A stretch of 46,790 nt of DNA, taken from contig JANXNS010000253.1 of NCBI GenBank assembly GCA_025353965.1, forward strand, positions 1 to 46,790, read 5' to 3'. Under the pieces are notes generated by a model that ran no database searches, had not been told where the DNA came from, and saw only the letters and a list, made by a program, of their open reading frames with translations. Positions 15,966-39,709 of this stretch are shown here, piece after piece. Numbering within the stretch: the stretch's first letter is position 1; each line of letters begins with the position of its first letter. The DNA is from Aquihabitans sp. (GTDB lineage: Bacteria > Actinomycetota > Acidimicrobiia > Acidimicrobiales > Iamiaceae). The translations under genes and the position numbers were made by a program.

Positions 15966-16520
15966 ATGGACCGAGAGCTTGAACGGATCCTGGACGACGG
16001 TTACCTCACCGGATTGCCCGATCGGTCCGTCGCCGAGCTGAGAAGTGTCCGCGCCCAGTGCCAGTCGCTGGAGACCAAGCTCTCGTACCTTCGCCGGTTG
16101 GCGCAGGGTCGCCACGACATCGTCACCGGCGAGATCGAGCGTCGGCGCCATGGCGGTGATCCAGATGACGTGGCCGGGTTGGTCGAGCGTCTGCCGGAGA
16201 TACTGGCTGACCGAACTCGTGGGACTGGTCCTGGCCGGTTGTCCACGACGCTTGAACCAGGTGAACTCTCCGGCGTGCTGGTCGACCGGTTCGAGGCCAT
16301 TGCTGAGGCCATTCCGTTGGATGCGCCCGATGCCATCACCGATGCCCACTTGGCGGAAGCGGCGGAGCAGTTGGTTGCGCTGGAAGGCGAGGTCTCGGGC
16401 CTTCGTCGAGCCATGTTCGAACGAATCGATACGGTTGAGGCAGAACTCACCCGGCGCTATCGGGATGGCGAAGCGCAGGTAGACGACCTGTTGGCCAGCG
16501 CCGTGGCCGAGGAGTCTTGA
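15966..16520 (+). CDS. rsiG: RsiG-like c-di-GMP-responsive anti-sigma factor
   Basis: 184 residues, mostly two long helices. Residues 36-51 match the RsiG c-di-GMP motif E(x3)S(x2)R(x3)Q(x3)D exactly: Glu36, Ser40, Arg43, Gln47, Asp51. A second copy lies at 140-155 with Glu140, Ser144, Arg147, Asp155, but Phe151 replaces the Gln. The SYLRRLAQGRHDI block is typical of the aerial-mycelium-formation family. In Streptomyces, RsiG bound to c-di-GMP sequesters sigma WhiG. This protein probably binds a flagellar-type sigma factor encoded elsewhere. The Shine-Dalgarno is GAAGGA, and an upstream TACAGT -10 lies near 15915. Confidence 0.85.
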   Translation: MDRELERILDDGYLTGLPDRSVAELRSVRAQCQSLETKLSYLRRLAQGRHDIVTGEIERRRHGGDPDDVAGLVERLPEILADRTRGTGPGRLSTTLEPGELSGVLVDRFEAIAEAIPLDAPDAITDAHLAEAAEQLVALEGEVSGLRRAMFERIDTVEAELTRRYRDGEAQVDDLLASAVAEES

Positions 16521-16674: not shown

Positions 16675-17148
16675 ATGGCAGCAGCCGAGGAAATTGAGAC
16701 GCGGTGGCACGACCTGGGTGAGTTCATCCGGGAACAGCGTCGAGTCGGTCATCTGTCGTTGCGGAAACTGTCGGAGATGGCCGGGATCTCCAACCCCTAC
16801 CTCAGCCAAATCGAGCGTGGTCTCCGGAAGCCGTCGGCCGAGATTCTTCAGCAGATCGCCCGAGCTTTGGAGATCAGCTCCGAAACGCTTTATGTGCGAG
16901 CGGGCATTTTGGAAGCCCGAGAGGGCGATACAGATCTCATCACGGAGATTCGGCGTGACCCCTGGCTCCATGAGGAGCAAAAGAAGACCATCGTGCAAAT
17001 TTATGAATCGTTCCGAGCGGAGCGGAAGGCGGCAGGCTTCGTGCCCTTCGGCATGGCGGACCCCAGCGCTGAATCGGGTGAAGAAGCCGCAGGTGAGAAA
17101 GATGATCTAGTCGATCAGGAATCTGAGGCCCTCGCTGGACGTTCGTAG
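16675..17148 (+). CDS. XRE-family transcriptional regulator (Rv0474-like)
   Basis: 157 residues. The helix-turn-helix (about 14-72) reads LGEFIREQRRVGHLSLRKL, then SEMAGISNPYLSQIERGLRKPSAEIL, which is highly conserved in an actinobacterial family that includes, as recalled, Mycobacterium Rv0474. An acidic tail (about 125-157) ends the protein. Its regulon is unknown. It directly precedes mshA, 7 bp away, and the mshA Shine-Dalgarno lies at its stop codon, so it is probably co-transcribed with mycothiol synthesis. The start is set by the TAGCCT box 6 nt upstream. Confidence 0.85.
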   Translation: MAAAEEIETRWHDLGEFIREQRRVGHLSLRKLSEMAGISNPYLSQIERGLRKPSAEILQQIARALEISSETLYVRAGILEAREGDTDLITEIRRDPWLHEEQKKTIVQIYESFRAERKAAGFVPFGMADPSAESGEEAAGEKDDLVDQESEALAGRS

Positions 17149-17155
17149 GAGGGTC

Positions 17156-18370
17156 GTGGCCGAACTCGCTGTTCTCTCCTTACATTCCTCGCCTCTCGCC
17201 CAACCGGGTACGGGAGACAGCGGGGGGATGAATGTGTACGTGCGTGAGCTGGCGGCTGCCCTGGCCCAGGCCGGCGTGGGTACAACCGTGTATGTGCGGC
17301 GCTGGGCAGATGGATTGCCCGACGAAGTTGCGGTTGAACCGGGTTTTCGGGTCGTGCACCTCGACGCTGGTCCGGTGAATCTGCCCAAGGAAGCGCTCCC
17401 GGACACGGTCGATACGTTTACCGATGCCCTTGTCGGCCGCCTCCGCCGGGACCCAGTGGACGTGATCCATGCCAATTACTGGCTCTCGGGCGTGGTCGGG
17501 CACCGGGTCAAGCACCGGTTAGACCTCCCCCTCGTTTCGACCTTCCATACGTTGGCCCGCGTGAAGGCCGAGACGGGAGACCCCGAGCCAGACCGACGGG
17601 TAGACGCGGAGTCCGAGGTCATTGGCTGTTCGGACGTAATCTTGGCTAACTCGCTGGAGGAGCGTTCTCAGCTCGAGCGGCTTTACGGCGCTGACCCGAG
17701 CCGTATCCAGATCGTGCCGCCCGGTGTGGAGCATGCGTTCTTTTCGCCGGGGGATCAGGGCGGTGCCCGCCGAGCCCTCGGGCTTGACCTCCATGCGCCC
17801 ACGCTTCTTTTTGTCGGTCGCATCCAGCCGCTCAAGGGTCTCCAGGTAGCTGTCGGCGCGTTGGCCGCCCTGGGCCGCAACGATGCCCGTTTGGTTGTCG
17901 TGGGCGGGCCCAGTGGCGCGGAGGGGGCCCAGGAACTGGCGCAGGTCCTGGCTTTGGCGTCGTCGCTCGGTGTGGCCGACCGGATCCAGTTTGTTCCGCC
18001 CCAGCCCCACCACCTTCTGTCGACCTGGTACCGGGCGGCAGATGTCGTTTTAGTTCCGAGCCGCTCAGAGTCATTCGGGCTGGTGGCCTTGGAGGCCGCC
18101 GCCTGCGGTACCCCGGTGGTGGCCGCCGCGGTAGGCGGGTTGCGCACGCTGGTGGTGCACGGCCAGACCGGGCTGCTGGTGGATGGCCGGGATCCGTTGG
18201 CGTTCGGTGCCGCTACGGCCGAGGTGCTCGACCGGCCCGGCTTTGGCCGCCAATTGGGCCATGCCGCAGCCGCGAGGGCCAAGGACTACACCTGGTCAAC
18301 CGCGGCGGCGCGATTACGGCGGGTCTATGCGGATTTGGCGGCGGCTGCGCTGGTGGATTGCGCGGCCTGA
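17156..18370 (+). CDS. mshA: MshA-like D-inositol-3-phosphate glycosyltransferase
   Basis: A 404-residue GT4 glycosyltransferase (two Rossmann domains). MshA joins UDP-GlcNAc to inositol-3-phosphate, the first step of mycothiol synthesis in the cytoplasm. The N-terminal HSSPLAQPGTGDSGGMNVYV is the MshA hallmark, and the donor-site ExxxxxxxE is in SRSESFGLVALEAAACG (about 301-317). Other GT4 features are FVGRIQPLKG and NSLEERSQL. The GTG start has AGGAGGG just upstream. The next gene encodes a YbjN protein, the same neighbour as in Mycobacterium (Rv0486-Rv0487), which supports the assignment. Confidence 0.92.
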   Translation: MAELAVLSLHSSPLAQPGTGDSGGMNVYVRELAAALAQAGVGTTVYVRRWADGLPDEVAVEPGFRVVHLDAGPVNLPKEALPDTVDTFTDALVGRLRRDPVDVIHANYWLSGVVGHRVKHRLDLPLVSTFHTLARVKAETGDPEPDRRVDAESEVIGCSDVILANSLEERSQLERLYGADPSRIQIVPPGVEHAFFSPGDQGGARRALGLDLHAPTLLFVGRIQPLKGLQVAVGALAALGRNDARLVVVGGPSGAEGAQELAQVLALASSLGVADRIQFVPPQPHHLLSTWYRAADVVLVPSRSESFGLVALEAAACGTPVVAAAVGGLRTLVVHGQTGLLVDGRDPLAFGAATAEVLDRPGFGRQLGHAAAARAKDYTWSTAAARLRRVYADLAAAALVDCAA

Positions 18371-25698: not shown

Positions 25699-26325
25699 GT
25701 GTCCCCCCGCTACCCCGTCCTCCTCGATATGGCCGGCCAGCCCTGCCTGGTCGTTGGTGGTGGCGCGGTTGCGGAGCGGAAGGTTCTTGGGCTGCTCGGC
25801 GTTGGAGCGATCGTGACCATGATCGCGCCCGAGGCAACGGAGGTTCTGGCGGCAACGGCAGCCTCCGGCGACGGAACGCTTCTCTGGCACGAGCGTCGTT
25901 GGTCTCCAGCCGATTTCACCTCTGTGGCCTGGCGGTTCGTGGTGGCGGCAACGGACGACGCTGCGCTCAACCGTGTCGTGAGCACCGCGGCCGCCGATCG
26001 GGGCGTGTGGGCCAACGATGTGTCGGAACCCGATGGTGGGGCCGCCGCCTTGCCTGCTGTCCACCGCGATGGCCCCATCACTCTTTCGGTGTCTACTGGC
26101 GGCGTTCACCCGGGCGCCGCCACCTGGCTCCGAGACCTGGCGGTGGGGGCCATTGCTCCGGAACACCTGACCGCTCTGGATCTCGTGGCCGAGGTACGGG
26201 CCGCTTCGCCACAAGCCTCCCGTCCCGATTGGCGGCAAGCGGTGGATTCGGGAATGCTTGACCTCATCCGCGAAGGCCGTGTGGCCGAAGCCAAGGAGCG
26301 CCTGAAGGCGTGTCTGTCGTCGTAA
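25699..26325 (+). CDS. Precorrin-2 dehydrogenase (SirC / CysG N-terminal domain type)
   Basis: 208 residues starting YPVLLDMAGQPCLVVGGGAVAERKV, the NAD-binding loop of the Met8p/CysG N-terminal domain. It oxidises precorrin-2 to sirohydrochlorin with NAD+ on the way to sirohaem. The central region has FVVAATDDAALNRVVS and the mid-domain LSVSTGGVHPGAATWLRD, both typical. It lacks the methyltransferase half, which is supplied by the cobA-hemD fusion downstream. It overlaps hemA by 16 bp, so translation is coupled. Confidence 0.9.
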   Translation: MSPRYPVLLDMAGQPCLVVGGGAVAERKVLGLLGVGAIVTMIAPEATEVLAATAASGDGTLLWHERRWSPADFTSVAWRFVVAATDDAALNRVVSTAAADRGVWANDVSEPDGGAAALPAVHRDGPITLSVSTGGVHPGAATWLRDLAVGAIAPEHLTALDLVAEVRAASPQASRPDWRQAVDSGMLDLIREGRVAEAKERLKACLSS

Positions 26326-27575
26326 TCGGACTGAACCACCGAACCATGCCGCTCGACCTGTTCGAGCGAATGACCATCGATGGCGCCCGCCTGCCCAAGG
26401 CGCTGCATGACCTTGCGTCGCGTGAGCACTTGGGCGAGGTCGTCGTCCTCTCCACCTGTAACCGCACCGAGGTCTATGCCCTGGCCGAGCGGTTCCACGG
26501 CGCCTATGGCGACGTACGCAACTTCCTGGCTGAGTTGGCCTTTGTCACCCCAGTCGAGTTCGCCGATCACCTCTATGTTCACTATGACACCGAGGCGGTT
26601 CGCCACCTTTTCTCTGTCGCCGCCGGTCTGGATTCCGCGGTCCTGGGCGAGGCAGAAATCCTGGGTCAGGTTCGCAATGCCTGGGAGCGCGCTGGCGAGG
26701 AAGGAACCGCTGGTCCCGTCCTGAACCTCCTCTTCCGCCACTCGTTGGAGACCGGCAAGCGGGCCCGGACCGACACTGATATAGCCCGGGGTACTGCGTC
26801 GGTTTCGCACGCGGCGGTGGAGATGGCGGCGGAGCGGCTCGGAGATTTGGTGGGCAAGCGGGTGCTGGTCATGGGCGCGGGCGAGATGGCCGAAGGCATG
26901 GCCACCGCCCTGCAGCGAGCTGGCGTCACCGATGTGTTCGTGGCCAACCGCACCTGGCGCAAGGCCCGGGCCTTGGCTGACCGCATTGGCGGGACCGCTG
27001 TTCGCCTGTCAGACCTCCCCCTAGCGCTGCTGGAGATTGATCTCCTGCTCACCTCCACCGGGGCAACGGTTCCGGTGGTTGAGCACGACGACTTTGCCCT
27101 GGTCATGGCTGAGCGGCAGGGTCGAGAACTGTTGATCGTCGACATAGCGGTGCCGCGCGATGTAGACCCCACAGTCCGCGAGCTTGACGGCGTCACCCTT
27201 CTTGACATCAACGATCTGCGCACGTTCGCTCAGGCCGGTATCGAGCGTCGCTCCGGTGAGCTCGCCGCGGTAGAAGCCATCATCGAGGACGAACTCGATC
27301 GCTTCCGCAGCGCAGCCTCAGATCGTTCGGCGGCCCCGGTCGTTGGCGCCCTGCACCGCTGGGCCGACGAGGTCCGAGACGCGGAGCTCAGTCGGTTCGA
27401 TGCCCGGCTGGATGGGCTGACCGATCGCCAGCGCGAAGCGGTCGACGCCCTCGCCAAGGGCCTGGTGAACAAGCTTCTGCATCGGCCCACCATGGCCCTC
27501 AAGGAGCATGCCGGGTCACCCACCGGCGACCGCTTGGCGGAGGCCATGCGGCAGCTCTACGACCTAGATGACTGA
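26310..27575 (+). CDS. hemA: Glutamyl-tRNA reductase
   Basis: 421 residues. It reduces Glu-tRNA to glutamate-1-semialdehyde, the committed step of C5-pathway haem synthesis. The catalytic Cys is in VVVLSTCNRTEVYAL (about 44-58), the NADPH-binding loop is VLVMGAGEMAEGMA, and the C-terminal dimerisation helix carries LVNKLLHRPTMALKE. GTG 26310 is the start, beginning MSVVVIGLNHRTMPLDLFER, inside the end of the sirC-like gene. The stop overlaps hemC by 8 bp. Confidence 0.97.
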   Translation: MSVVVIGLNHRTMPLDLFERMTIDGARLPKALHDLASREHLGEVVVLSTCNRTEVYALAERFHGAYGDVRNFLAELAFVTPVEFADHLYVHYDTEAVRHLFSVAAGLDSAVLGEAEILGQVRNAWERAGEEGTAGPVLNLLFRHSLETGKRARTDTDIARGTASVSHAAVEMAAERLGDLVGKRVLVMGAGEMAEGMATALQRAGVTDVFVANRTWRKARALADRIGGTAVRLSDLPLALLEIDLLLTSTGATVPVVEHDDFALVMAERQGRELLIVDIAVPRDVDPTVRELDGVTLLDINDLRTFAQAGIERRSGELAAVEAIIEDELDRFRSAASDRSAAPVVGALHRWADEVRDAELSRFDARLDGLTDRQREAVDALAKGLVNKLLHRPTMALKEHAGSPTGDRLAEAMRQLYDLDD

Positions 27576-28482
27576 CCCGCCTTCCACCACGACGCTCCGG
27601 GCGGCCACCCGCCGGAGCCCGCTGGCGATCTGGCAGGCCGAGCACGTCCGTGCCCTCCTCCAACTAGCCCACCCCGGGTTGACGGTGGAGCTGGTGGGTC
27701 TGGAAACCGAAGGCGATCAGCGGCTCGATGTTGCGATCTCGGCTATCGGCGGCAAGGGCGTTTTCGCCAAGGAGGTCCAACAAGCGGTGCTGGCCGGCCG
27801 GGCAGACTTCGCCGTCCACTCGGCCAAGGACCTGCCTGCGGTGACCGTCGATGGGCTGACGCTGGCCTCGGTCCCCCCCCGTGGGGATGCCCGAGACGCG
27901 CTGGTGGGGGCGACGCTCCAGGCGCTCCCGCATGGGGCAACGGTGGCCACAGGGTCCCAGCGCCGCCGGGCGCAACTGGCGCGTGTGCGTCCGGATCTGG
28001 TCTTCGCTGAGCTGCGGGGCAACATGGCGTCGAGGTTGTCCAAAGTGCCCGACGGCGGGGCCATCGTGGTTGCGGCCGCCGCGTTCCAGCGTCTGGGACT
28101 CGACCGACACTTGACGCAGGTATTCGAAGTCCGCGAGATGATCCCGCAGGTCGGTCAAGGGGCCCTGGCTATTGAATGCCGGAAAGACGATCAGACCACC
28201 ATCAACGTGCTGGCGGCCATCGAACATCAGCCATCGCGCCGGCTGGTAGATACCGAGCGGGCGTTCCTGGCGGAACTCGGTGGGGACTGCGACCTGCCGG
28301 CCGGTGCCCACGCCCGCTTCGACGGAGTACGCGATGATGGCATCTTGATCCTGGATGCGTTCCTGGCCAGCGACGGAACTGCGGCGGCCCGTTTCCAGAG
28401 CCATCGGGCATCAGGCGAAGACCCGGAATCACTGGGCACATCGGTAGCCCGGCACCTGCGCGCCGCCCTTGGTCCGACCTGA
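27568..28482 (+). CDS. hemC: Porphobilinogen deaminase (hydroxymethylbilane synthase)
   Basis: 304 residues. It polymerises four porphobilinogens into hydroxymethylbilane. RAATRRSPLAIWQAEHV, DFAVHSAKDLPA (with the catalytic-loop Asp region), GSQRRRAQL and ELRGNMASRLSK are intact. The dipyrromethane cofactor Cys is in LGGDCDLPAGAHA (about 239-251). It is coupled to hemA by an 8-bp overlap and followed, after 40 bp, by cobA-hemD. Confidence 0.97.
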   Translation: MTDPPSTTTLRAATRRSPLAIWQAEHVRALLQLAHPGLTVELVGLETEGDQRLDVAISAIGGKGVFAKEVQQAVLAGRADFAVHSAKDLPAVTVDGLTLASVPPRGDARDALVGATLQALPHGATVATGSQRRRAQLARVRPDLVFAELRGNMASRLSKVPDGGAIVVAAAAFQRLGLDRHLTQVFEVREMIPQVGQGALAIECRKDDQTTINVLAAIEHQPSRRLVDTERAFLAELGGDCDLPAGAHARFDGVRDDGILILDAFLASDGTAAARFQSHRASGEDPESLGTSVARHLRAALGPT

Positions 28483-28509
28483 CCGTTCGAAGCGTCCTCG
28501 GTCAGTCGT

Positions 28510-28515
28510 TACCAT
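28510..28515 (+). promoter_or_regulatory. Internal leaderless -10 box for cobA-hemD
   Basis: TACCAT ends 7 nt before GTG 28523. It suggests a second, internal promoter in the haem cluster and helps choose the start. Confidence 0.35.
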
Positions 28516-28522
28516 CGAGCGC

Positions 28523-30004
28523 GTGACCGTGTACCTCGTGGGCGCTGGGCCTGGTGATCCTGGATTGCTGACCCGTCGTGGGGCCGAACTGCTGGCTAAG
28601 GCCGATGTTGTCGTCCACGACCGTTTGTCGGCCACGGAACTCCTCGACTTGGCTCCGGCGTCGGCCGAGCGCATTGACGTGGGCAAAGCCCCCAAGCACC
28701 ACCGCATGACGCAGGAGCAGATCAACGCCCTCCTGGTGGAGCGGGGCTTGGCCGGGCAGATGGTGGTTCGGCTTAAGGGTGGGGACCCATTTGTCTTTGC
28801 CCGTGGAAGCGAAGAAGCTCAGTCGTTGATTGATGCCGGGGTGCCCTATGAGGTGGTGCCGGGTATTACCTCCGCTCTGGCGGTGCCGGCCTACGCAGGC
28901 ATTCCGGTCACCCAACGGTTCTCGTCCACGTCGTTCACCGTGGTCACTGGCCACGAGGATCCGTCCAGCGGAGACGGGACGGTGGACTGGGACGCGGTTG
29001 CCCGAGTGGGCGGCACGATCGTGATCTTGATGGGGGTCGGTCGTTGGCCACAGATCGCTGCTCGACTGCTGGCTGCCGGGCGCAGCCCGGACACGCCGGC
29101 GGCGGCCGTTCGCTGGGGAACCCGGCCGACCCAACACACCACCCGCGCCACGCTGGCCACCTTGGCGGATCACCCGCTCGATGCGCCATCAGTGATCGTG
29201 GTCGGTCACGTTGCCGGCCAAGATCTGGCTTGGTACGAGCGGCGCCCGCTGTTCGGCCGGAAGGTGGTGGTCACTCGGGCGCGCTCACAAGCATCGGCGC
29301 TGTCTGATCGGCTGCGTGAGCTTGGCGCGGAGGTGGTGGAGTCGCCCGCTCTTGCGGTGGTGGACCCTACCGATGGTGGTATCGCGTTGCTGGCGGCATT
29401 GGCCGATGTGGCGGCGGCCGATTGGCTGGTCTTCACCTCGCCCAACGGCGTGGACCGTACGTTTGCTCACCTGCCGGATGCCCGGGCGCTAGCCGGTGTA
29501 AAGGTGGCAGCGGTGGGGACCGGTACGGCCGAGGCTTTGGCAGACCGACGAATCGTGGCCGATCTCATTCCACCGCGATTCGTGGCCGAAGGTTTGCTGG
29601 AGGTGTTCCCCCCTCCCCCCTCGGGCGGGGGTCGGGTGGTCCTGGCCGCCGCCGCCGCGGCCCGGCCGGTGCTACCTGATGGCCTACGAGCCGCGGGGTG
29701 GGAGGTCGAGGTAGTCCCTGTGTACGGAACGGTTCCTGTCACCCCGGACCCTGCGACCTTGGCCCAGATCGAAGACGCCGATGCGGTGACCTTCACGTCG
29801 TCATCCACCGTCACCAACTTTTGCCAGGCGGTAGGGCCAGACCGGGTCCCGCCCGTGGTTGCCTCGATCGGGCCGGTCACCTCGGCCACGGCCCGAGACC
29901 TTGGCTTGTACGTGGATGTGGAGGCCAGCCCTCACACCATCGATGGCCTCGTCGATGCCCTCGTTGTGGCGTTGGCTCGGACCGGGCGTGTCAGACTCGA
30001 CTGA
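28523..30004 (+). CDS. cobA-hemD: CobA-HemD fusion: uroporphyrinogen-III methyltransferase / synthase
   Basis: 493 residues. The first ~245 are the SAM-dependent uroporphyrinogen-III C-methyltransferase: VYLVGAGPGDPGLLT, VVRLKGGDPFVFARGSEE and TVVTGHEDP. The rest is uroporphyrinogen-III synthase, which closes hydroxymethylbilane: KVVVTRARSQASALSDRLRELGAEV, WLVFTSPNGV and AVTFTSSSTVTNF. Such fusions occur in Actinobacteria (for example Mycobacterium Rv0511). The protein serves both haem and, with the SirC-like enzyme, sirohaem branches. GTG 28523 is preferred over the upstream frame because of the TACCAT box. Its stop overlaps the next small gene (TGATG). Confidence 0.94.
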   Translation: MTVYLVGAGPGDPGLLTRRGAELLAKADVVVHDRLSATELLDLAPASAERIDVGKAPKHHRMTQEQINALLVERGLAGQMVVRLKGGDPFVFARGSEEAQSLIDAGVPYEVVPGITSALAVPAYAGIPVTQRFSSTSFTVVTGHEDPSSGDGTVDWDAVARVGGTIVILMGVGRWPQIAARLLAAGRSPDTPAAAVRWGTRPTQHTTRATLATLADHPLDAPSVIVVGHVAGQDLAWYERRPLFGRKVVVTRARSQASALSDRLRELGAEVVESPALAVVDPTDGGIALLAALADVAAADWLVFTSPNGVDRTFAHLPDARALAGVKVAAVGTGTAEALADRRIVADLIPPRFVAEGLLEVFPPPPSGGGRVVLAAAAAARPVLPDGLRAAGWEVEVVPVYGTVPVTPDPATLAQIEDADAVTFTSSSTVTNFCQAVGPDRVPPVVASIGPVTSATARDLGLYVDVEASPHTIDGLVDALVVALARTGRVRLD

Positions 30005-30252
30005 TGCCGGCCGTACCCCTCGATGACCTGCCCGATCGAATTTTTCCTGCCACCGTGGCCGTGGTGAACGGCGTCGTGCGTATCGGCTTGGATGACGCCG
30101 CGCTCCGAGTGATCGCCACCTCCGACGAGGTCGTGAAGGCGAGCAACCGCGGTCACCGGCAACGGTGCCCGTCCGCCAGCTCGCAACGAACCGTGGAGGT
30201 TTCGTGGGTAACCCATTGCCTGATGCCGTTGTCTTCGATTTCGACGGTCTGA
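30004..30252 (+). CDS. Small uncharacterised gene between hemD and the HAD gene
   Basis: 82 codons starting at an ATG that overlaps the cobA-hemD stop. The first ~47 residues (PLDDLPDRIFPATVAVVNGV, then VRIGLDDAALRVIATSDEVV) look like normal protein; the last ~35 are low-quality, Arg/Ser-rich sequence that runs in another frame into the HAD gene (49-bp overlap). It may be a short coupled protein or the remnant of a longer gene disrupted by a frameshift. No family is recognised. Confidence 0.35.
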   Translation: MPAVPLDDLPDRIFPATVAVVNGVVRIGLDDAALRVIATSDEVVKASNRGHRQRCPSASSQRTVEVSWVTHCLMPLSSISTV

Positions 30253-30878
30253 TCTTTGATAGCGAGACCCCGATCTACCGAGCTAGCGCCAACGCGCTGG
30301 CCCTCCTTGGCTACGACCTCACCATCGAAGGATGGGCGACGGTGGTCGGCCACGGCGATGCCGAGGGGTGGGCCGCGCTCCAGATAGCGGTGGGTTCCGA
30401 GCTCAACCGGGTGGCCTACGACGAGGCCTACGAGGCCCAGGACCGATCATGGCGTGATACCCAACCGGCCTTGCCGGGCGTGGTTGCACTCCTAGATGCG
30501 CTTGGATCTGCTGGGGTGCCCATCGGGATCGCATCGAGCTCTCCGTCGGCCTGGATCGAGGGCCACTTGGGCCGCCTGGGTTTGCGTGATCGCTTCGCCA
30601 CCATTGCCAGCGAGGACCGCGTCGGCGGTGAGGCCAAACCGGCGCCGGACACCTACCTGTTGGCCTGCGCAGACCTCGGTGTCAGGCCCGCTCGCTCGAT
30701 TGCGCTGGAGGACTCCTCACCCGGTGTGGCCGCGGCCAGGGCTGCAGGCCTCAATGTGGTTGCGGTGCCCAACGAGATCACCCGCCATAGCGATGTATCC
30801 GCCGCGCACCGAATCGTGGCGAGCCTGGAGGACCTGGTGGTGGCGGACCTCGCCCACCTGGTGGCCAACCGCCCGTAG
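30204..30878 (+). CDS. HAD-superfamily hydrolase (beta-phosphoglucomutase-like)
   Basis: 224 residues. Motif I is VVFDFDGLIFDSE (nucleophile Asp and the acid/base Asp two residues on), motif II is IASSSPS, motif III Lys is in GGEAKPAPDTYL, and motif IV is ALEDSSPGVAAARAAG. The four-helix cap identifies subclass IA, with phosphatase or phosphoglucomutase activity on an unknown small phosphate ester. GTG 30204 is chosen because GGAGG lies 5 nt upstream. Its stop codon TAG is part of the hemB -10 box. Confidence 0.9.
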   Translation: MGNPLPDAVVFDFDGLIFDSETPIYRASANALALLGYDLTIEGWATVVGHGDAEGWAALQIAVGSELNRVAYDEAYEAQDRSWRDTQPALPGVVALLDALGSAGVPIGIASSSPSAWIEGHLGRLGLRDRFATIASEDRVGGEAKPAPDTYLLACADLGVRPARSIALEDSSPGVAAARAAGLNVVAVPNEITRHSDVSAAHRIVASLEDLVVADLAHLVANRP

Positions 30879-30881
30879 GCT
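30876..30881 (+). promoter_or_regulatory. Leaderless -10 box for hemB, overlapping a stop codon
   Basis: TAGGCT starts with the TAG stop of the HAD gene and ends 7 nt before GTG 30889, so one trinucleotide is both stop codon and promoter element. Confidence 0.45.
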
Positions 30882-30888
30882 GGTCAGC

Positions 30889-31863
30889 GTGTTCCCGCAG
30901 CGCCGCCTCCGTCGGCTCCGTCGCACGCCGGCCCTGCGCCGGATGGTGGCCGAGACCCTCCTCACCCCCAACGATCTGATCGCCCCATTGTTCGTGCGGG
31001 AAGGGATCCGTGACCCGCAGCCCATTGCTTCCATTCCGGGTGTCTCGCAGCACACCATTGCGTCGTTACGGCAGGAGGTGCGGGAGTTGGTGGACCTCGG
31101 CGTGCCAGCAGTGATCTTGTTTGGCGTGCCTGAACACAAAGATGCGGAGGGCTCCGGGGCCAGTGATCCGTGCGGCATCGTGCAGGTCGCCCTCAAAGAC
31201 CTCCGAGACACATTCGCCGACGACATCGTGCTCATCGCAGACCTGTGTCTCGACGAATACACCGACCACGGCCATTGCGGCCTCCTCACCGCGGAGGGCC
31301 TGGTCGACAACGACACGACCCTCGATCGGTACGCCGAAATTGCGGTGGCCCAGGCCGATGCCGGCGTCGACATCGTCGCTCCCTCCGGGATGATGGACGG
31401 CCAGGTCGCCGCCATCCGCGACGAGCTGGATGAGCACGACTGGGTCGACGTGTCGGTCATGGCCTACGCCGCCAAGTTCGCCTCCGGGCTGTACGGCCCG
31501 TTCCGGGATGCGGTCGACGTGGAAATCGTCGGCGGTGGGGACCGAAAGGCCTACCAGCAAGATTTCCGTAACGCCCGGGAAGCCTTGGAAGAGGTTCGGG
31601 CCGATGTGGCCGAGGGGGCAGATATGATCATGGTCAAGCCGGCACTGGCCTACCTCGACATTGTCGCCAAAGTTCGGGCCGAGCACGACCTTCCCTTGGC
31701 CGCCTATCACGTTTCTGGCGAGTATTCGATGATCAAGGCGGCCGCCGCCAACGGGTGGATCGACGGGGATCTGGTCGCCCTCGAGCACCTCACGGCTATC
31801 AAGCGCGCCGGAGCAGACGTCATTCTCACGTACCTGGCCAAAGAGGTTGCCGCCGTGCTCTAG
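30889..31863 (+). CDS. hemB: Delta-aminolevulinic acid dehydratase (porphobilinogen synthase)
   Basis: 324 residues. HemB condenses two 5-aminolevulinates into porphobilinogen. The active-site lysines are in VMAYAAKFASGLYGPFRDA and DMIMVKPALAYLD. The metal-binding loop is ADLCLDEYTDHGHCG: two of the three zinc cysteines are kept and the middle one is Asp, a type seen in Actinobacteria. GTG 30889 is the start, set by the TAGGCT box. The longer upstream frame overlaps the HAD gene and is not used. It is followed, after 72 bp, by hemL. Confidence 0.96.
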   Translation: MFPQRRLRRLRRTPALRRMVAETLLTPNDLIAPLFVREGIRDPQPIASIPGVSQHTIASLRQEVRELVDLGVPAVILFGVPEHKDAEGSGASDPCGIVQVALKDLRDTFADDIVLIADLCLDEYTDHGHCGLLTAEGLVDNDTTLDRYAEIAVAQADAGVDIVAPSGMMDGQVAAIRDELDEHDWVDVSVMAYAAKFASGLYGPFRDAVDVEIVGGGDRKAYQQDFRNAREALEEVRADVAEGADMIMVKPALAYLDIVAKVRAEHDLPLAAYHVSGEYSMIKAAAANGWIDGDLVALEHLTAIKRAGADVILTYLAKEVAAVL

Positions 31864-31935
31864 GCGGAGGTGCAGATTTCCGCAGGCCAGGGCGTACGGT
31901 GGCTTCATTGCACGACGGAAGTACGAAGGAATGAC

Positions 31936-33234
31936 GTGACCACCAACTCCGAGCTGTTCGAGCGGGCACAGCGGGTCATTCCCGGCGGGGTCAACTCCCC
32001 GGTCCGGGCATTCCGGTCCGTCGGGGGAACCCCGTATTTTGTGGCCCGAGCACAGGGGCCACGGGTATGGGATGTCGAGGGTACGGAATACCTAGACCTG
32101 GTGCAGAGCTACGGGGCCATTATCGGCGGTCATGCTCACCCCAAGATTATTGAGGCGGTTCGGGCGGCCGCGGGCGACGGCACCTCCTATGGGGCACCCA
32201 CCGAGCGCGAAGTGTTGTTGGCCGAGGAAATTTCCCGTCGGGTTCCGTCGTGTCAGAAGGTGCGCCTGGTAGCCAGCGGCACAGAGGCAACCATGACTGC
32301 GCTCCGTTTGGCCCGGGGGGCGACCGGCCGGACCAAAGTCGTGAAGTTCGCCGGGAACTACCACGGTCACGGCGACGCGCTGCTGGCCGAGGCCGGCTCC
32401 GCCGTTGCCCTGCTAGACCGAGACTCGTCGCCTGGTGGCGTGCCCGGTTCGGCGGGAGTACCGCCCACCGCAGTCTCAGAAACCATTGTGGTTCCCTACA
32501 ACCAGGTTCCGACCCTGGACGACACCGTGGCCTGCGTGATCGTGGAACCGGTGGCCGCCAATATGGGCCTGGTCGCACCGGCCGAGGGGTTTCTCGCTGG
32601 CCTTCGCGCTGTATGCGATCGCGTTGGCGCCCTGCTGATTTTCGACGAAGTGATCACCGGGTTCCGGCTGGCGTTCGGCGGGGCCCAGGCGCTGTATTCG
32701 ATCACCCCGGATCTGAGCTGTTTCGGCAAGGTGATCGGTGGGGGGCTCAATGTGGGAGCGTTCGGTGGACGGGCCGACCTCATGGATCAGCTCGCTCCGC
32801 TCGGCCCCGTTTACCAAGCGGGCACGCTTTCTGGAAACCCGCTAGCCACCGCCGCTGGCCTGACGGCGCTCTCCCTGCTGGACCACCAGGCGTATGAGCA
32901 ACTCACGGCCACCGCCACCCGCCTGGCTGCGGGCCTTGAGTCGGCGCTGCTGGGCGCGGGCCTCACCGGGCGGGTACCGCAGGTTGCCTCGCTGGTGGGT
33001 CTCTTCTTTGGGGCCGAACTTCCCACGGACTACGTCACCGCACGAGCCACCGACGAGAGGGTCTATGCCCATTTCTTCCACGGTCTGTTGTCTCGCGGTG
33101 TGGCCCTGGCGCCCGGTGCGTACGAGGTCATGTTCCCTGGCCTGGCCCATGACGACGCGGTGATCGACCGCATTGTTGCGGTGGCGGCCGAGGCCGCTCA
33201 GGCCACGGTTGTGGAGCGGGAACGGCTGCAGTGA
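31936..33234 (+). CDS. hemL: Glutamate-1-semialdehyde 2,1-aminomutase
   Basis: A 432-residue PLP enzyme that converts glutamate-1-semialdehyde to 5-aminolevulinate. RVIPGGVNSPVRAF, LVASGTEATMTALRLARG, KFAGNYHGHGDALL, LIFDEVITGFRL and the PLP lysine loop FGKVIGGGLNVGAFGG are intact. GTG 31936 follows GAAGGA; an ATG five bases earlier is out of frame. With hemA, hemB, hemC and hemD it completes the route to uroporphyrinogen III. The stop overlaps the GGDEF-EAL gene start (GTGA). Confidence 0.96.
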   Translation: MTTNSELFERAQRVIPGGVNSPVRAFRSVGGTPYFVARAQGPRVWDVEGTEYLDLVQSYGAIIGGHAHPKIIEAVRAAAGDGTSYGAPTEREVLLAEEISRRVPSCQKVRLVASGTEATMTALRLARGATGRTKVVKFAGNYHGHGDALLAEAGSAVALLDRDSSPGGVPGSAGVPPTAVSETIVVPYNQVPTLDDTVACVIVEPVAANMGLVAPAEGFLAGLRAVCDRVGALLIFDEVITGFRLAFGGAQALYSITPDLSCFGKVIGGGLNVGAFGGRADLMDQLAPLGPVYQAGTLSGNPLATAAGLTALSLLDHQAYEQLTATATRLAAGLESALLGAGLTGRVPQVASLVGLFFGAELPTDYVTARATDERVYAHFFHGLLSRGVALAPGAYEVMFPGLAHDDAVIDRIVAVAAEAAQATVVERERLQ

Positions 33235-35771
33235 CCGAAATTGTGGGCGTTGATCTGCCCGCAGGGGTGGACCTGGCCCGTCTGGTGGGCCAGATGCCGG
33301 ACGCCCTGGTCCTGGTCAGGTCGGACGGCATCATTTGTTGGGCTGCTCCGTCGATCACGGGCATGCTCGGCTGGGGGACAGATGAATTGGTGGGCCTGTT
33401 GGCCTTTGACCTCTTCGCGAAGAGCGTCAACCGCCCGCTTCACGACGAGGCCTTCGAGTGGGTGCTCTCGGCCCCTGGCCTCCATGGGCCCTTCGAGGTG
33501 ACCATCGTGGGCGCGGACGGAAGTCTCCATGAAGTCGAGCTCATGGTCACCAATGCCCTGCTCGATCCCGACCTTGGGGTCCTGGTGGCATCGTGTCGAG
33601 AAATCACTGATCGCGATTCCGATCTCGAGGAGCTTCGACAGAGCGAGGCTTGGGCCACCAGCCTGCTCCGGGGGGCAACCGACCTCATCGTGGTCTGTGA
33701 TCGCGTTGGGCGCATTGTCTATATGGGTCCGTCGACCCAGCGGATTCTCCATCGTGATCCAACCTCCATGGTTGGTCGGATCATCACCGACTACGTCCAC
33801 GCCGATGACGTGTTGCAGGGTGCGGTGGAGGTCAGCTCCGTAGACCAGCTCTTGGGCACCGGGCTTGGCCGCCGCCCGCTGGTTCGCTTCCAACACGCCG
33901 ATGGTTCGTGGAAACGGCTTCGGGTGGAGCGGTCGGTCACCGAGCCCGTCTCGGAACACGCGATCTTGCTCACTGGTCGTGATTTGGATGAGGACGCAAG
34001 AGCGGCGGACCTCCTGAGTGAGCAGACCGTCCTACTCGAGCGCATCGCCCGGGGTGCTCCGGTGACCGACACCCTCCGATCGATTGAACGTCTCGCTGCG
34101 GCCCGGCTAGGCGATGGGCATCTCATAATCGGCTTCTTCGACCCAAGCGGAGACTTCAGAAGTCAGGCCGATGCGGTTGATCAGGACCTGATCGGCATCC
34201 TCGAGCGGACGGGGATCATTCGCCCGACGGGCCATCCGGATGATGCTGAGGCGATCTTGTCCTTTCGTCACGACGAAGGGTGGGACGCGGTCCTATGGGC
34301 GGCATCGGGGAACCTCTACCGGACGGCGTGGGTGTGTGATCTTGAGGCGGCCGACGGGAACCGTTCCGGTCGGCTTACCCTTTTGCGCCATCACCCGGCC
34401 CCGTTGACCAACGAAGAACTCGACATGCTCGGGTTGGTGGCGGACCTCGCCACCATTGCGATTGAACGCCACGACCTCCAGGCTCGGTTGGCCTACGGCG
34501 CCATGCATGACGAGCTCACTGGCCTCCCCAACCGTCGTCTCTTGCTGGCGCGCCTCAGCGAGATGTTCTCGACGCCGGAGTCCAAGGGCGGCCTGCTGTT
34601 CGTCGATGTCGATCGCTTCAAGCTCATCAACGACAGCCTCGGCCACGACGCGGGAGACCAATTACTGCAGGAAATTACGGTGCGGTTTGTCCGCACCCTT
34701 CGCCCGGCGGACCTTGTTGCTCGGGTCGGTGGCGACGAATTCGTTGTGCTGTGTCCGGACCTGGAAGACGTCGACGCGGTCGCTCGGGTGGCGGAGCGGC
34801 TCATGGCCACCCTGAGCGAACCGGTAGATCTGCCTGGGGGTCGGGTGGTGGTGTCGGCCAGCATCGGCGTGGCCCACCGGCGGGGTGGAGCTGAGCCCAC
34901 GGCGGTCCTCCAAGACGCGGATATGGCCATGTACGAGGCCAAGCAGAAGGGCCGGAACCAGGTCGCCCTGTTTCATGCTGGGCTCCGGGAGCGGGCCGTT
35001 GCCCGTCTTGAGGTGGAGAACGCGCTCCGCGACGCCATTCGCTTCGACGAAATGCAACTGCATTATCAACCGGTCATTCGCCTTCGTGATCGGCGCATGG
35101 TGGGCGTCGAGGCGTTGCTGCGGTGGCAGCGCCCGGGCCTGGGCATGGTCCAGCCCAATGCCTTCGTCCCGGTCGCCACCGACACGGGCCTGATCTTGCC
35201 GCTCGGCCGATGGGTGATCGAGCAAGCGGTTGAGGCCGCGGCCCGGTGGCCGGACCTCGAGGTGGCCGCCAACCTTTCGGCTCGCCAACTTACCGACGCC
35301 GATTTGGTCGACTTCGTGGCCGAGGTGCTGGAGCGGGAAGGCGTGTGGCCGGGGCGGCTATGCCTGGAGGTGACCGAGGCAGACCTCATCACCGACACCC
35401 CGCTGGTGGTGGACCAACTGGCCCGGTTCAAGAAGCTCGGCGTCCGCTTGGCCATCGATGATTTCGGTACGGGCTTTGCCACCCTTGACTACCTGCGGCG
35501 CTTTGCTTCGGCCGACATCTTGAAAGTCGACGCGTCGTTTGTTGCGGGCGTGACCGATCCCTCCTCGCACGACCTTGCCATCGTCTCGGCGGCCATGATC
35601 CTGGCCGACAACCTCGGGTTCGATGTGGTGGCCGAAGGGGTCGAGACGGAGGAGCAGCGCGAGGTTTTGGAGCGTCTCGGATGCGGGATGGCCCAGGGCT
35701 ATCTCTTCAGCCGGCCGGTCGCCGCCTCAGAGATCGACGAAATGCTGCGCATCCGCGACTTGCCGCTGTAG
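33231..35771 (+). CDS. PAS-PAS-GAF-GGDEF-EAL cyclic-di-GMP enzyme
   Basis: 846 residues without membrane helices. Two PAS domains (about 15-130 and 140-260) and a GAF-like region (about 275-425) precede GGDEF and EAL. The GGDEF active site is intact (RVGGDEF, 500-504), and an inhibitory RxxD site lies five residues before it (Arg491, Asp494). The EAL domain has GVEALLRW (EAL 627-629), ANLSARQL, LEVTEADL, IDDFGTG (Asp743-Asp744), LKVDASF and EGVETEEQ, so both synthesis and hydrolysis of c-di-GMP are possible. PAS or GAF domains could bind haem or flavin. The GTG start overlaps the hemL stop, an unusual coupling to haem synthesis. Confidence 0.94.
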   Translation: MTEIVGVDLPAGVDLARLVGQMPDALVLVRSDGIICWAAPSITGMLGWGTDELVGLLAFDLFAKSVNRPLHDEAFEWVLSAPGLHGPFEVTIVGADGSLHEVELMVTNALLDPDLGVLVASCREITDRDSDLEELRQSEAWATSLLRGATDLIVVCDRVGRIVYMGPSTQRILHRDPTSMVGRIITDYVHADDVLQGAVEVSSVDQLLGTGLGRRPLVRFQHADGSWKRLRVERSVTEPVSEHAILLTGRDLDEDARAADLLSEQTVLLERIARGAPVTDTLRSIERLAAARLGDGHLIIGFFDPSGDFRSQADAVDQDLIGILERTGIIRPTGHPDDAEAILSFRHDEGWDAVLWAASGNLYRTAWVCDLEAADGNRSGRLTLLRHHPAPLTNEELDMLGLVADLATIAIERHDLQARLAYGAMHDELTGLPNRRLLLARLSEMFSTPESKGGLLFVDVDRFKLINDSLGHDAGDQLLQEITVRFVRTLRPADLVARVGGDEFVVLCPDLEDVDAVARVAERLMATLSEPVDLPGGRVVVSASIGVAHRRGGAEPTAVLQDADMAMYEAKQKGRNQVALFHAGLRERAVARLEVENALRDAIRFDEMQLHYQPVIRLRDRRMVGVEALLRWQRPGLGMVQPNAFVPVATDTGLILPLGRWVIEQAVEAAARWPDLEVAANLSARQLTDADLVDFVAEVLEREGVWPGRLCLEVTEADLITDTPLVVDQLARFKKLGVRLAIDDFGTGFATLDYLRRFASADILKVDASFVAGVTDPSSHDLAIVSAAMILADNLGFDVVAEGVETEEQREVLERLGCGMAQGYLFSRPVAASEIDEMLRIRDLPL

Positions 35772-35797
35772 AAGGGGTGGGGCCTCCGCGGCCTTCT
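35770..35797 (+). terminator. Possible terminator after the GGDEF-EAL gene
   Basis: AGAA and GGCC arms pair with GGCC and TTCT around a short loop, with an unpaired stretch on the 5' side. It sits right at the stop codon and before pgi. There is no U-tract, so the call is tentative. Confidence 0.3.
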
Positions 35798-35826
35798 GCC
35801 GTCAATTTGTTCAGGAGCACCATTTC

Positions 35827-37401
35827 ATGACCACTGCCGGATTCCGTCGAGAGCGCCTCGGGGCCCTGCAGCCAGGGGTAGACGCGGTCCTGGCGGACCT
35901 GTCCGATAAAGACGCGGTTGCCCGGCTTTGGGGCCGTGATCACACGTTGTGGGCTCATGATCCGACCGAGATCAGCGACCGGATGGGCTGGCTTGAGGTC
36001 ACCGCCGATATGAGCGCGGCGGCGGAGCGGCTCAACGCCGTGGCGGCGCGGGCCTTGGCCGATGGCTTCACGCACCTCGTCGTCATGGGCATGGGTGGCT
36101 CGAGCCTGTTCCCGGAGGTGCTGGCCCGGACGTTTGGCCAGGAGGCTCACGGCCTCCATCTCACCGTGCTCGACAGCACCGATCCTGCGGCGGTAGCCCG
36201 GGTGTTAGTGCAATCCCCGCCGGAGCACACCTTGTTCTTGGCTTCTTCCAAGTCGGGCGGCACGGTCGAAACCCGTAGCCACCTGGACTTCTTCTGGGAC
36301 CGCATCGATCGGCCCGAGCAGTTCGCCGTGGTGACTGATCCTGGGTCTGCCCTCGGAAAATTGGCGAGCGAGCGGGGCTATCGCGAGATTTTTGAGAACC
36401 GCGCCGACATCGGTGGCCGGTACTCAGCCCTCAGCTTCTTTGGCATGGTCCCGGCCGCCCTGGCCGGGATCGACTGGCAGGCGCTCGTGGCCAGCGCGGA
36501 TGGCGTTGCGCCCTCGCTGCGCAGCAACGACCCAACGGTCAACGCCGGTCTTCGGCTGGGTGCGGTCCTGGCCGCCGCGGTCAAGGCGGGCCGGGACAAG
36601 GTGACGTTCTTGATCGTCCCGCGGATCGAGACGTTTGGGCTTTGGCTGGAACAACTGCTGGCGGAGTCCACCGGCAAGCACGGCACGGGAACGGTCCCCA
36701 TCGTGGACGAGCCTCTCGGTCCGAGCGACCTCTACGGCGCCGATCGCCTGTTCATCGCCATTGGCGAGGTCGACCAGGAAATTGGCCTTGACGTGTTGGC
36801 GGCGGAGGGCCAGCCGGTGGTGGAACTCGCTTTTGGCCCAACAACCGACCTCGGGGCCCAAGTGTTGCTCTGGGAAGTTGCGACTGCGATCTGTGGCGCC
36901 GCCCTTGGTATCAACCCGTATGACCAGCCGAACGTGGCCGAGGCCAAAGAAGCCACCAACGAAGTGCTGGCCTCGGGTCGGCCTGAGCTGCCGGCGGTTG
37001 CACTGGCAGATGTCCTGGCGCAGGTACGACCTGGCGACTACATCGCCGTTCAGGCCTACATGGAATCGTTCGACCCTGCCGTTGAACAGCTCATGGAGAT
37101 CCGCTTGGCCTTGTTAGATGAGTTCAAGGTGGCTACAACCTTCGGCCTGGGGCCGCGGTTCCTCCACTCGACCGGCCAGCTCCACAAGGGTGGCCCGTCA
37201 ACGGGTGTGTTCCTCCAGGTGGTGGGCGATGACCCGTCCGACGCGGCCATTCCGGGCCAGACCTTCACCTTCTCCGAGCTCAAGCATGCGCAGGCCGATG
37301 GGGATCTGGCGACCTTCCAGCGTCATGGCCTCCGCGCCGTTCGCACCACGCTGGCCGAACTCACGGCTCGGTCAAACCTTCAAGGAGGAGCACCCACATG
37401 A
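35827..37401 (+). CDS. pgi: Glucose-6-phosphate isomerase, Tal-Pgi C-terminal-half type
   Basis: 524 residues with two SIS domains. It interconverts glucose 6-phosphate and fructose 6-phosphate. Motifs include VVMGMGGSSLFPEVLART, LASSKSGGTVETRSHLDFFW, GGRYSALSFFGMVPAAL and FGLGPRFLHSTGQLHKGGPS. The sequence style matches the isomerase half of transaldolase-isomerase fusions rather than E. coli Pgi, but here it stands alone. ATG 35827 follows AGGAG. It overlaps gnd by 4 bp, and the gnd Shine-Dalgarno AAGGAGGA lies within its end: pgi-gnd-zwf is one unit. Confidence 0.93.
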   Translation: MTTAGFRRERLGALQPGVDAVLADLSDKDAVARLWGRDHTLWAHDPTEISDRMGWLEVTADMSAAAERLNAVAARALADGFTHLVVMGMGGSSLFPEVLARTFGQEAHGLHLTVLDSTDPAAVARVLVQSPPEHTLFLASSKSGGTVETRSHLDFFWDRIDRPEQFAVVTDPGSALGKLASERGYREIFENRADIGGRYSALSFFGMVPAALAGIDWQALVASADGVAPSLRSNDPTVNAGLRLGAVLAAAVKAGRDKVTFLIVPRIETFGLWLEQLLAESTGKHGTGTVPIVDEPLGPSDLYGADRLFIAIGEVDQEIGLDVLAAEGQPVVELAFGPTTDLGAQVLLWEVATAICGAALGINPYDQPNVAEAKEATNEVLASGRPELPAVALADVLAQVRPGDYIAVQAYMESFDPAVEQLMEIRLALLDEFKVATTFGLGPRFLHSTGQLHKGGPSTGVFLQVVGDDPSDAAIPGQTFTFSELKHAQADGDLATFQRHGLRAVRTTLAELTARSNLQGGAPT

Positions 37402-38300
37402 AGCTCGGCATGATCGGTCTCGGAAAGATGGGCGGCGCGATGGCGGAACGCCTGGAACGCCACGGCCACCAGGTCGTCGGCATGGATCCCGGCAAGCCGG
37501 AGGCAGATGCGCAGACCCTCGAGCAGTTGGTGCCGTTGCTGGCGGCCGAGGGCCAACCGAAGGTGGCCTGGAGCATGGTCCCCGCTGGCGCAATCACCGA
37601 TGGAACGATCAAGACCCTGGGCGGGCTGCTCGCCCCGGGTGACCTCGTGATCGATGGGGGCAACTCCAACTACCAGGACTCCATTCGCCACGGCCGAGAG
37701 CTGGCGGCCCAGGGCATCCACTTCGTGGACTGCGGTACGTCCGGTGGGGTGTGGGGGTTGGACAATGGGTATGCGCTCATGGTGGGCGGCACCGATGAAT
37801 CAGTGGCCATTGGTCAGCCGATTTTCGACGCATTGTCGCCGGAAAAGGGCTTTGCCCATGCGGGCCCGATTGGTGCCGGGCACTACGTGAAAATGGTCCA
37901 CAACGGCATCGAATACGGGCTCATGCAGGCCTATGCGGAGGGCTACGCCATCCTCGAGGCGTCGCCGCTCGGCATCAATGTGGAAGCAGCCATTGGATCG
38001 TGGCAGGAAGGGAGCGTGGTTCGCTCCTGGCTGCTCGATCTGTTGATCAAGGCCTTGGCCGAGTCGCCAGGTCTGGACGGCATTGCGTCGGTGGCGGCGG
38101 ACTCCGGTGAGGGTCGTTGGACGGTCAACGAAGCGGTGGCCAACGGTGTGTCCGCCCCCGTGATCTCCGCGGCACTGTTCGCCCGGTTCACCTCGCAACA
38201 CCGCGAGGACGACAAGACTATGAAGGTCGTCTCCGCGCTGCGCAACCAGTTCGGTGGCCACGCCATGGAGAAGAACGCCCCGACTGGAGAGAAGTCCTGA
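37398..38300 (+). CDS. gnd: 6-phosphogluconate dehydrogenase, short (GntZ/YqeC) type
   Basis: 300 residues, the compact form of decarboxylating 6-phosphogluconate dehydrogenase, about two-thirds the length of the E. coli enzyme. The Rossmann loop is [11 protein letters not shown], the substrate site has [12 protein letters not shown] and [13 protein letters not shown], and the catalytic Lys-Asn region is [21 protein letters not shown]. It makes ribulose 5-phosphate. The Asp after beta-2 (GMDPG) favours NAD over NADP, which is known for some short forms. It overlaps zwf by 1 nt (TGATG). Confidence 0.94.
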
Positions 38301-39709
38301 TGGCGGCGGCTCGTACCCGGTCCGACGCCCTGGTGCTATTCGGTGCAACCGGTGATTTGGCGTACAAGAAAATCTTCCCGGCGGTCTACCAAATGGAGGC
38401 CGCCGGCGGGTTGGACGGTCGGGTGATTGGCGTCGCCTCGTCCGACGGTGACGACACGTTCCTGCGGGGGCGCGTGCGTGACTCGATCACGGAATTGGTG
38501 CCGAACTTTGACCAGGCCGTGCTGGATCGACTGCTGGCGCAGGTCCACTACGTGTCCGGCGACTACCGCGAGGAGCAGGTCTACCAAGACCTTGCCCAGG
38601 TCCTCAAACACTTCGAACGCCCGCTTTTCTATCTCGCCATCCCGCCCGCCTTGTTCGACGATGTGATCACCGGGCTCGAACATTGTGGCGTCGCCAGCAA
38701 TGGGCGGGTCGTGGTGGAGAAACCCTTCGGCCGAGACTCGGCCAGTGCCAAGGAGCTCAACGATGTCCTCCATAAGAGTTTCACGGAGGACGAGATCTTC
38801 CGGATCGACCATTACCTAGGCAAGGAATCCATAGAGAACCTGCTGGTGTTCCGCTTTGCCAACTCCATGCTCGAACCCATCTGGAACCGTAACTTCATTG
38901 CCAGCGTGCAGATCACCATGGCGGAAGACTTCGGCGTCGGCAGCCGCGGCAAGTTTTACGAGAGTGTGGGCGCCCTTCGCGACGTGCTCCAGAATCACCT
39001 CCTGCAAATCGTTGCCCTGCTCGGTATGGAGCCACCGGCCGGTGCCGATGCCGCGTCGTTGCGCGACGAGAAGGTCAAACTGCTGCGCCAGGTCCGCACC
39101 ATCGAGCCCGGCAACCTCGTACGCGGCCAGTACCGCGGCTACATCGACGAAGAGGGCGTAGACGGCGGATCGGACATTGAGACCTACGCGGCTGTTCGGT
39201 TCGAGATCGACTCCTGGCGGTGGGCCGGTGTGCCGTGGCTCATTCGGACCGGTAAGGACCTCACCAGCACGGCGACGGAGGCCATCATCACCTTCAACGC
39301 CCCGCCGCGATTGCTGTTCACTCCGAAGGGCTCGCCCGAACCGGGCCCCAACCTCCTCCGCTTTCAGCTGGGTAAGCAGGACGGCGTCAAGCTGCATCTC
39401 CACGCCAAGAAGCCCGGCGAAGACCTCATCCCCGAGCCCATTGATCTTGAAGTCTCCTACGCCAAGGCCCTAGGCCCGCGGGAGGAGGCCTATCAGCGAC
39501 TCCTCGACGATGCCATGGATGGCGATGCCCGCCGCTTTGGTCGAGAGGACGCGCTGGATGAGCAGTGGCGCATAGTGGAGCAGGTGTTGGAGCACCACGA
39601 AGAAGTCCACCTCTACGCCCACGGCACCATGGGACCCAAGGAGGCCGATCGCCTAGCCGCCGACGTGGGCGGATGGCTCGACCCCGTACCGCCTGTCTCT
39701 GCCCCTTAG
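38300..39709 (+). CDS. zwf: Glucose-6-phosphate 1-dehydrogenase
   Basis: 469 residues. It oxidises glucose 6-phosphate to 6-phosphogluconolactone. The cofactor loop is [22 protein letters not shown] is conserved, and the catalytic site is [21 protein letters not shown]. Length and motifs are normal. The start codon shares its A with the gnd stop. It is the last gene of pgi-gnd-zwf; the lactonase, transketolase and transaldolase are not in the window. Confidence 0.96.

Follow-up and report, generated by a model that had tools for sequence, protein, structure and literature searches.

A twin-motif RsiG of the Acidimicrobiales with a recurrent phenylalanine at the stacking position of its second c-di-GMP motif

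The RsiG-WhiG pair has been described as the sole known case of a sigma/anti-sigma pair targeted by c-di-GMP (PMC8325347). In the solved complexes, the Gln of the RsiG motif E(x3)S(x2)R(x3)Q(x3)D stacks on guanine, a role of which His is also considered capable, and Lys57, Gly61 and Arg62 of WhiG contact the ligand (PMC8325347). Both RsiG motifs were found to be strikingly well conserved, the sole exception being a Gln to His change in motif 1, in a sample drawn mainly from the Streptomycetaceae, Pseudonocardiaceae and Geodermatophilaceae; twin-motif RsiG was present in three of four Acidimicrobiales (PMC8325347). Published c-di-GMP affinities of RsiG-WhiG pairs lie between 0.4 and 2 uM (PMC8325347).

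Here we present an rsiG gene from an Aquihabitans sp. of the Acidimicrobiales, located at 15966..16520 on the + strand of a 46,790-nucleotide stretch of DNA, the whole of which is referred to below as the window. The genome to which it belongs (G000) is 3.18 Mb in size and 99% complete. The open reading frame starts with ATG and encodes 184 aa, a predicted twin-motif c-di-GMP-dependent anti-sigma factor. The Pfam RsiG family, PF22802, matches the protein in two stretches with an E-value of 1.5e-24, above the curated cut-off, and the S. venezuelae RsiG structure 6pfj matches residues 16-177 with an E-value of 5e-17, so that homology to RsiG is established independently of the motif; the sequence-only reading of this DNA, which had called the protein an RsiG, is borne out by both matches. 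In the AlphaFold model two long helices are predicted, at residues 22-62 and 126-166. A Foldseek search with this model gave 6pfv and 6pfj as top matches (E 5e-5 to 2e-4, TM-score 0.51-0.68), and S. venezuelae RsiG structures were the only matches at E < 0.001. The model is ligand-free, draws its alignment rows from Streptomyces only and is of moderate confidence (pLDDT 75, pTM 0.67), and at that level it predicts the antiparallel coiled-coil fold of the RsiG family.

Motif 1 (ETKLSYLRRLAQGRHD, residues 36-51, 16071..16118, + strand) lies in helix alpha1 and fits the published pattern exactly, with Gln47 as its stacking residue and Glu, Ser, Arg and Asp at positions 36, 40, 43 and 51. Motif 2 (EGEVSGLRRAMFERID, residues 140-155, 16383..16430, + strand) lies in helix alpha5 and keeps Glu140, Ser144, Arg147 and Asp155, with Phe151 in place of the Gln; the translated frame thus agrees with the earlier description of one exact motif and one with Phe at the Gln position. 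Two such E/S/R/D frames arose in only ~4.5e-5 of 200,000 shuffles of the protein. Because of Phe151, the strict published twin-motif consensus, with Gln or His at both stacking positions, does not describe this protein. That consensus is a narrow description, unnecessary for membership of the RsiG family: homology, E/S/R/D in each motif helix, the coiled-coil fold and a cognate WhiG with Lys/Gly/Arg are all found here, and by its sequence the protein is a two-motif RsiG of the ordinary kind, typical of the Phe group.

Of 90 RsiGs of the order, 55 carry His and 35 carry Phe as the motif 2 stacking residue, with Gln in none (0/90), whereas all 80 of the 80 Streptomyces RsiGs have Gln. Fifteen families contribute Phe forms, among them the window's own, all 13 of whose RsiG sequences carry Phe. 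Every one of the 35 Phe forms retains Glu, Ser, Arg and Asp in motif 2. With one sequence taken per family, these four columns are 100% conserved in the Phe forms as compared to a median of 47% for the other alpha5 columns, a figure to be read with the bias towards intact motifs that comes from choosing the motif windows by score; the two motifs consistently lie ~100 residues apart. With the trait column left out of tree building, parsimony gives 14 changes between Phe and His; well-supported branches require at least six of these, and the clade in which they occur consists wholly of twin-motif forms. Elsewhere in the phylum, Phe is present in family f75 (5/5), Leu, Ile or Met in f90, f104, f123 and one f76 sequence, and His or Gln in f67, f102 and others. 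The motif 1 stacking residue stays Gln or His, with two exceptions in the order and phylum samples. Since E/S/R/D are kept while Phe, His, Gln, Leu, Ile and Met alternate, motif 2 is not degenerate; only its stacking position varies, and the remaining contacts are under constraint. The presence of Leu, Ile and Met in other families suggests that the alpha5 stacking place may need a hydrophobic residue, with the aromatic ring dispensable. Because the same residue recurs in many related bacteria, Phe151 looks like a tolerated variant and not a halfway form, and the alignments point to Phe as a late, recurrent substitution within twin-motif RsiGs.

Three RsiGs of families f14 and f7 (L131, L138 and L143, from genomes G036, G029 and G089) combine a Glu to Ala change in motif 1 with an Asp to Asn change in motif 2. 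The two changes would share one end of the c-di-GMP site in an antiparallel pair, so this end may be missing or altered in these proteins; WhiG is still present.

The window's genome encodes two sigma factors that exceed the FliA/WhiG cut-off, one each on contigs C135 and C118. The C135 protein scores 267 bits, has S. venezuelae WhiG as its best PDB match (E 2.5e-89, 62% identical) and has Lys57, Gly61 and Arg62 in place; its gene has a pair of genes for DprA and a tyrosine recombinase on one side and an M23 peptidase gene on the other. The WhiG/FliA-type sigma factor that the sequence-only reading had proposed to look for in the genome is therefore present, as a strong WhiG with the c-di-GMP-contacting residues. 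The C118 protein (L186, G000:C118:24386-25048), a second sigma of the FliA/WhiG clade, scores 199.6 bits and has Arg-Phe-Gln in place of Lys57/Gly61/Arg62, for which reason it was rejected as the RsiG partner. Sigmas that fall in the C118 class by score are widespread in the order and also occur in genomes without RsiG. A scan of viral contigs with WhiG returned two relatives.

Co-occurrence was counted over 148 genomes of the order, among them that of the window: 85 have RsiG together with a strong WhiG, 12 RsiG only, 3 WhiG only and 48 neither, giving an odds ratio of 113 and a Fisher p of ~1e-23, a value that ignores relatedness and includes some incomplete genomes among the 15 discordant ones. 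Within the window's own family, 14 genomes are near-complete, and these divide evenly: 7 have both genes and 7 have neither. Ser at WhiG position 61 accompanies only His-form RsiGs (6/20, versus 0/10 for Phe forms), counts made by eye and too small to claim coupling. With regard to c-di-GMP enzymes, nine GGDEF matches were found in the window's genome. One is within the window, in a protein with Pfam PAS, GGDEF and EAL domains and intact GGDEF and EAL signatures (33231..35771, + strand); its gene is not adjacent to rsiG, and the protein is a possible source or sink of c-di-GMP. This gene sits in a stretch (26310-39709) that carries hemA, hemC, hemD, hemB and an aminotransferase gene (likely hemL), then directly the PAS-GGDEF-EAL gene, and then glucose-6-phosphate pathway genes.

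Downstream of rsiG on the same strand are genes for a Cro/C1-type helix-turn-helix (HTH) protein (16675..17148, +; Pfam HTH_3, E 2e-13) and an MshA-like glycosyltransferase (17156..18370, +; TIGR03449, 410 bits, below the 462.5 cut-off). Same-strand neighbours of these types are found at 64/90 and 76/90 of the rsiG loci of the order, respectively.

As for what WhiG controls, no FliF was found in the window's genome, and a pattern scan of that genome for the flagellar/WhiG promoter consensus, allowing up to one mismatch, gave zero matches. Among 12 genomes of the genus, just two contain exact matches; within the window and at a pilus cluster on contig C4, matches were at chance level only and no regulon was identified. 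The pilus cluster (L324, 5037-10340) is type IV pilus-like and encodes a PilB-like ATPase with an MshEN domain, a PilC-like protein and pilin-like proteins with N-methylation signals. MshEN is a known type of c-di-GMP-binding domain. PilM_2 was undetected in the window's genome, and the conclusion that type IV pili are absent, which might be drawn from this, was rejected on account of the PilB/PilC/pilin cluster. In Rubrobacter, the RsiG-WhiG switch has been proposed to control type IV pili; by analogy, the C4 pilus genes are candidate WhiG targets, although no promoter of the WhiG type was seen at this cluster. The GGDEF/EAL genes are further candidates.

In the reading that we consider probable, the RsiG is a twin-motif monomer whose two long helices would pair as an antiparallel coiled coil that displays both motifs. 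By homology, the motifs would jointly bind two c-di-GMP molecules, and at high c-di-GMP the complex would clamp the C135 WhiG and hold it away from RNA polymerase. Phe151 would take the place of Gln or His by packing its ring on guanine, which would keep motif 2 functional. We infer the binding, the anti-sigma action, the monomeric state and the stacking role of Phe151 in this way. General chemistry makes an aromatic ring such as that of Phe well suited to stacking; against this, Phe cannot make the side-chain hydrogen bonds open to Gln or His, and our literature search found no published structure or binding assay of a Phe-containing motif. A changed affinity for c-di-GMP, as the sequence-only reading had suggested, is possible. 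It is rather unlikely, in our estimate, that motif 2 is instead off the ligand at the Phe side, with weak or asymmetric binding through motif 1 and the E/S/R/D residues of motif 2 and a switch tuned to higher c-di-GMP. Asymmetric binding of this kind would fit the recurrence of hydrophobic Phe, Leu, Ile and Met solely in motif 2, with Gln or His almost everywhere in motif 1, and the Rubrobacter complex grips one end of the c-di-GMP dimer less tightly (PMC8325347); yet none of the Phe forms has lost the guanine-reading Asp or Arg of motif 2, and the ring itself should stack well. A more general proposal, which we advance only tentatively, is that chemical asymmetry has evolved many times among twin-motif RsiGs, alpha1 keeping Gln/His and alpha5 being free for Phe, Leu, Ile or Met, with a shift in the c-di-GMP threshold for WhiG release. 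If this is true, a single alpha5 position tunes the switch in different lineages. We regard it as very improbable that the protein is an RsiG-like coiled coil with another target, such as the C118 sigma, or one that works independently of c-di-GMP: the same genome does hold a second sigma above the FliA/WhiG cut-off, but the ligand-contacting residues of that sigma are replaced and its class extends to RsiG-free genomes, whereas strong WhiG tracks RsiG.

The sequence-only reading had gone further and suggested a possible intermediate form with changed affinity or stoichiometry. In such a form, motif 2 would be under assembly, or decaying, between the single-motif homodimer and the twin-motif monomer. 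One strict motif does stand beside one that departs from the published consensus, in an order that branches more deeply than Streptomyces by published phylogeny. However, the window alpha5 falls in one clade (SH-aLRT 99) with every other sampled twin-motif alpha5 (65 in the tree) bar that of L301, in a single-helix tree of only 46 columns whose inner order is unresolved. Since the twin-motif alpha5 helices form one group, the duplication that gave rise to alpha5 predates Phe. Single-motif RsiGs of the phylum-wide sample are mostly open frames of 83-163 aa with one helix and lack the second helix, as also described in PMC8325347, whereas the window RsiG has a full alpha5. Together with the forced Phe/His changes inside the all-twin-motif clade and the undecayed E/S/R/D of the 35 Phe forms, this placement speaks against the intermediate, to which we give hardly any likelihood: Phe arose late and repeatedly.

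The exception in that tree, L301 (G253:C2:238730-239164), is a 174-aa RsiG whose two motif helices are 52% identical (other twin-motif RsiGs have a median of 26%), and both are closest to L244, a single-motif RsiG of the same family. L301 seems to stem from an intragenic duplication of its own, of later date, and would suit the role of an intermediate better than the window RsiG does. More than one RsiG-like gene per genome was seen in G208 (L302, L308, L309) and in G253 (L310, L314), and G253 has two further motif-like pairs within or beside other reading frames.

The new element here is a natural variant of the c-di-GMP site that recurs and is conserved, and of which our literature search found no description; the RsiG-WhiG pair itself is already known. 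Sampling of deeper lineages reveals that the stacking residue of motif 2 varies widely while the other contacts are nearly fixed, and the RsiG recognition motif is corrected at this position. The natural motif 2 variants also provide a test set for how the RsiG-WhiG switch is tuned, and the question is raised of what WhiG does in a bacterium in which a flagellar basal body was not detected.

Compared to the monomeric, twin-motif RsiG of S. venezuelae (6pfj, 6pfv), the window RsiG is of the same length class, has its motif helices likewise ~100 residues apart, shares the C-terminal RRYRDGEAQVDDLL block and is ~36% identical in structural alignment, and Lys57/Gly61/Arg62 are common to the WhiG partners of both. 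It differs in having Phe151 where the S. venezuelae motif 2 has Gln. At Streptomyces rsiG loci, the HTH and MshA-like neighbours usual in the window's order were not found, bar three distant HTH matches, and the cellular output of the window RsiG is, as far as known, something other than sporulation. The single-motif, homodimeric RsiG of Rubrobacter radiotolerans (7lq2-7lq4) matches only residues 16-62 of the window protein, the motif 1 helix, with an E-value of ~1e-4. It lacks the second helix that the window RsiG has, and with this helix present the latter would need no dimerisation. The 90 RsiGs of the order share the twin motif with it and have His or Phe and no Gln at the motif 2 stacking position, often with HTH and MshA genes adjoining; from these the window RsiG differs by ordinary sequence divergence only.
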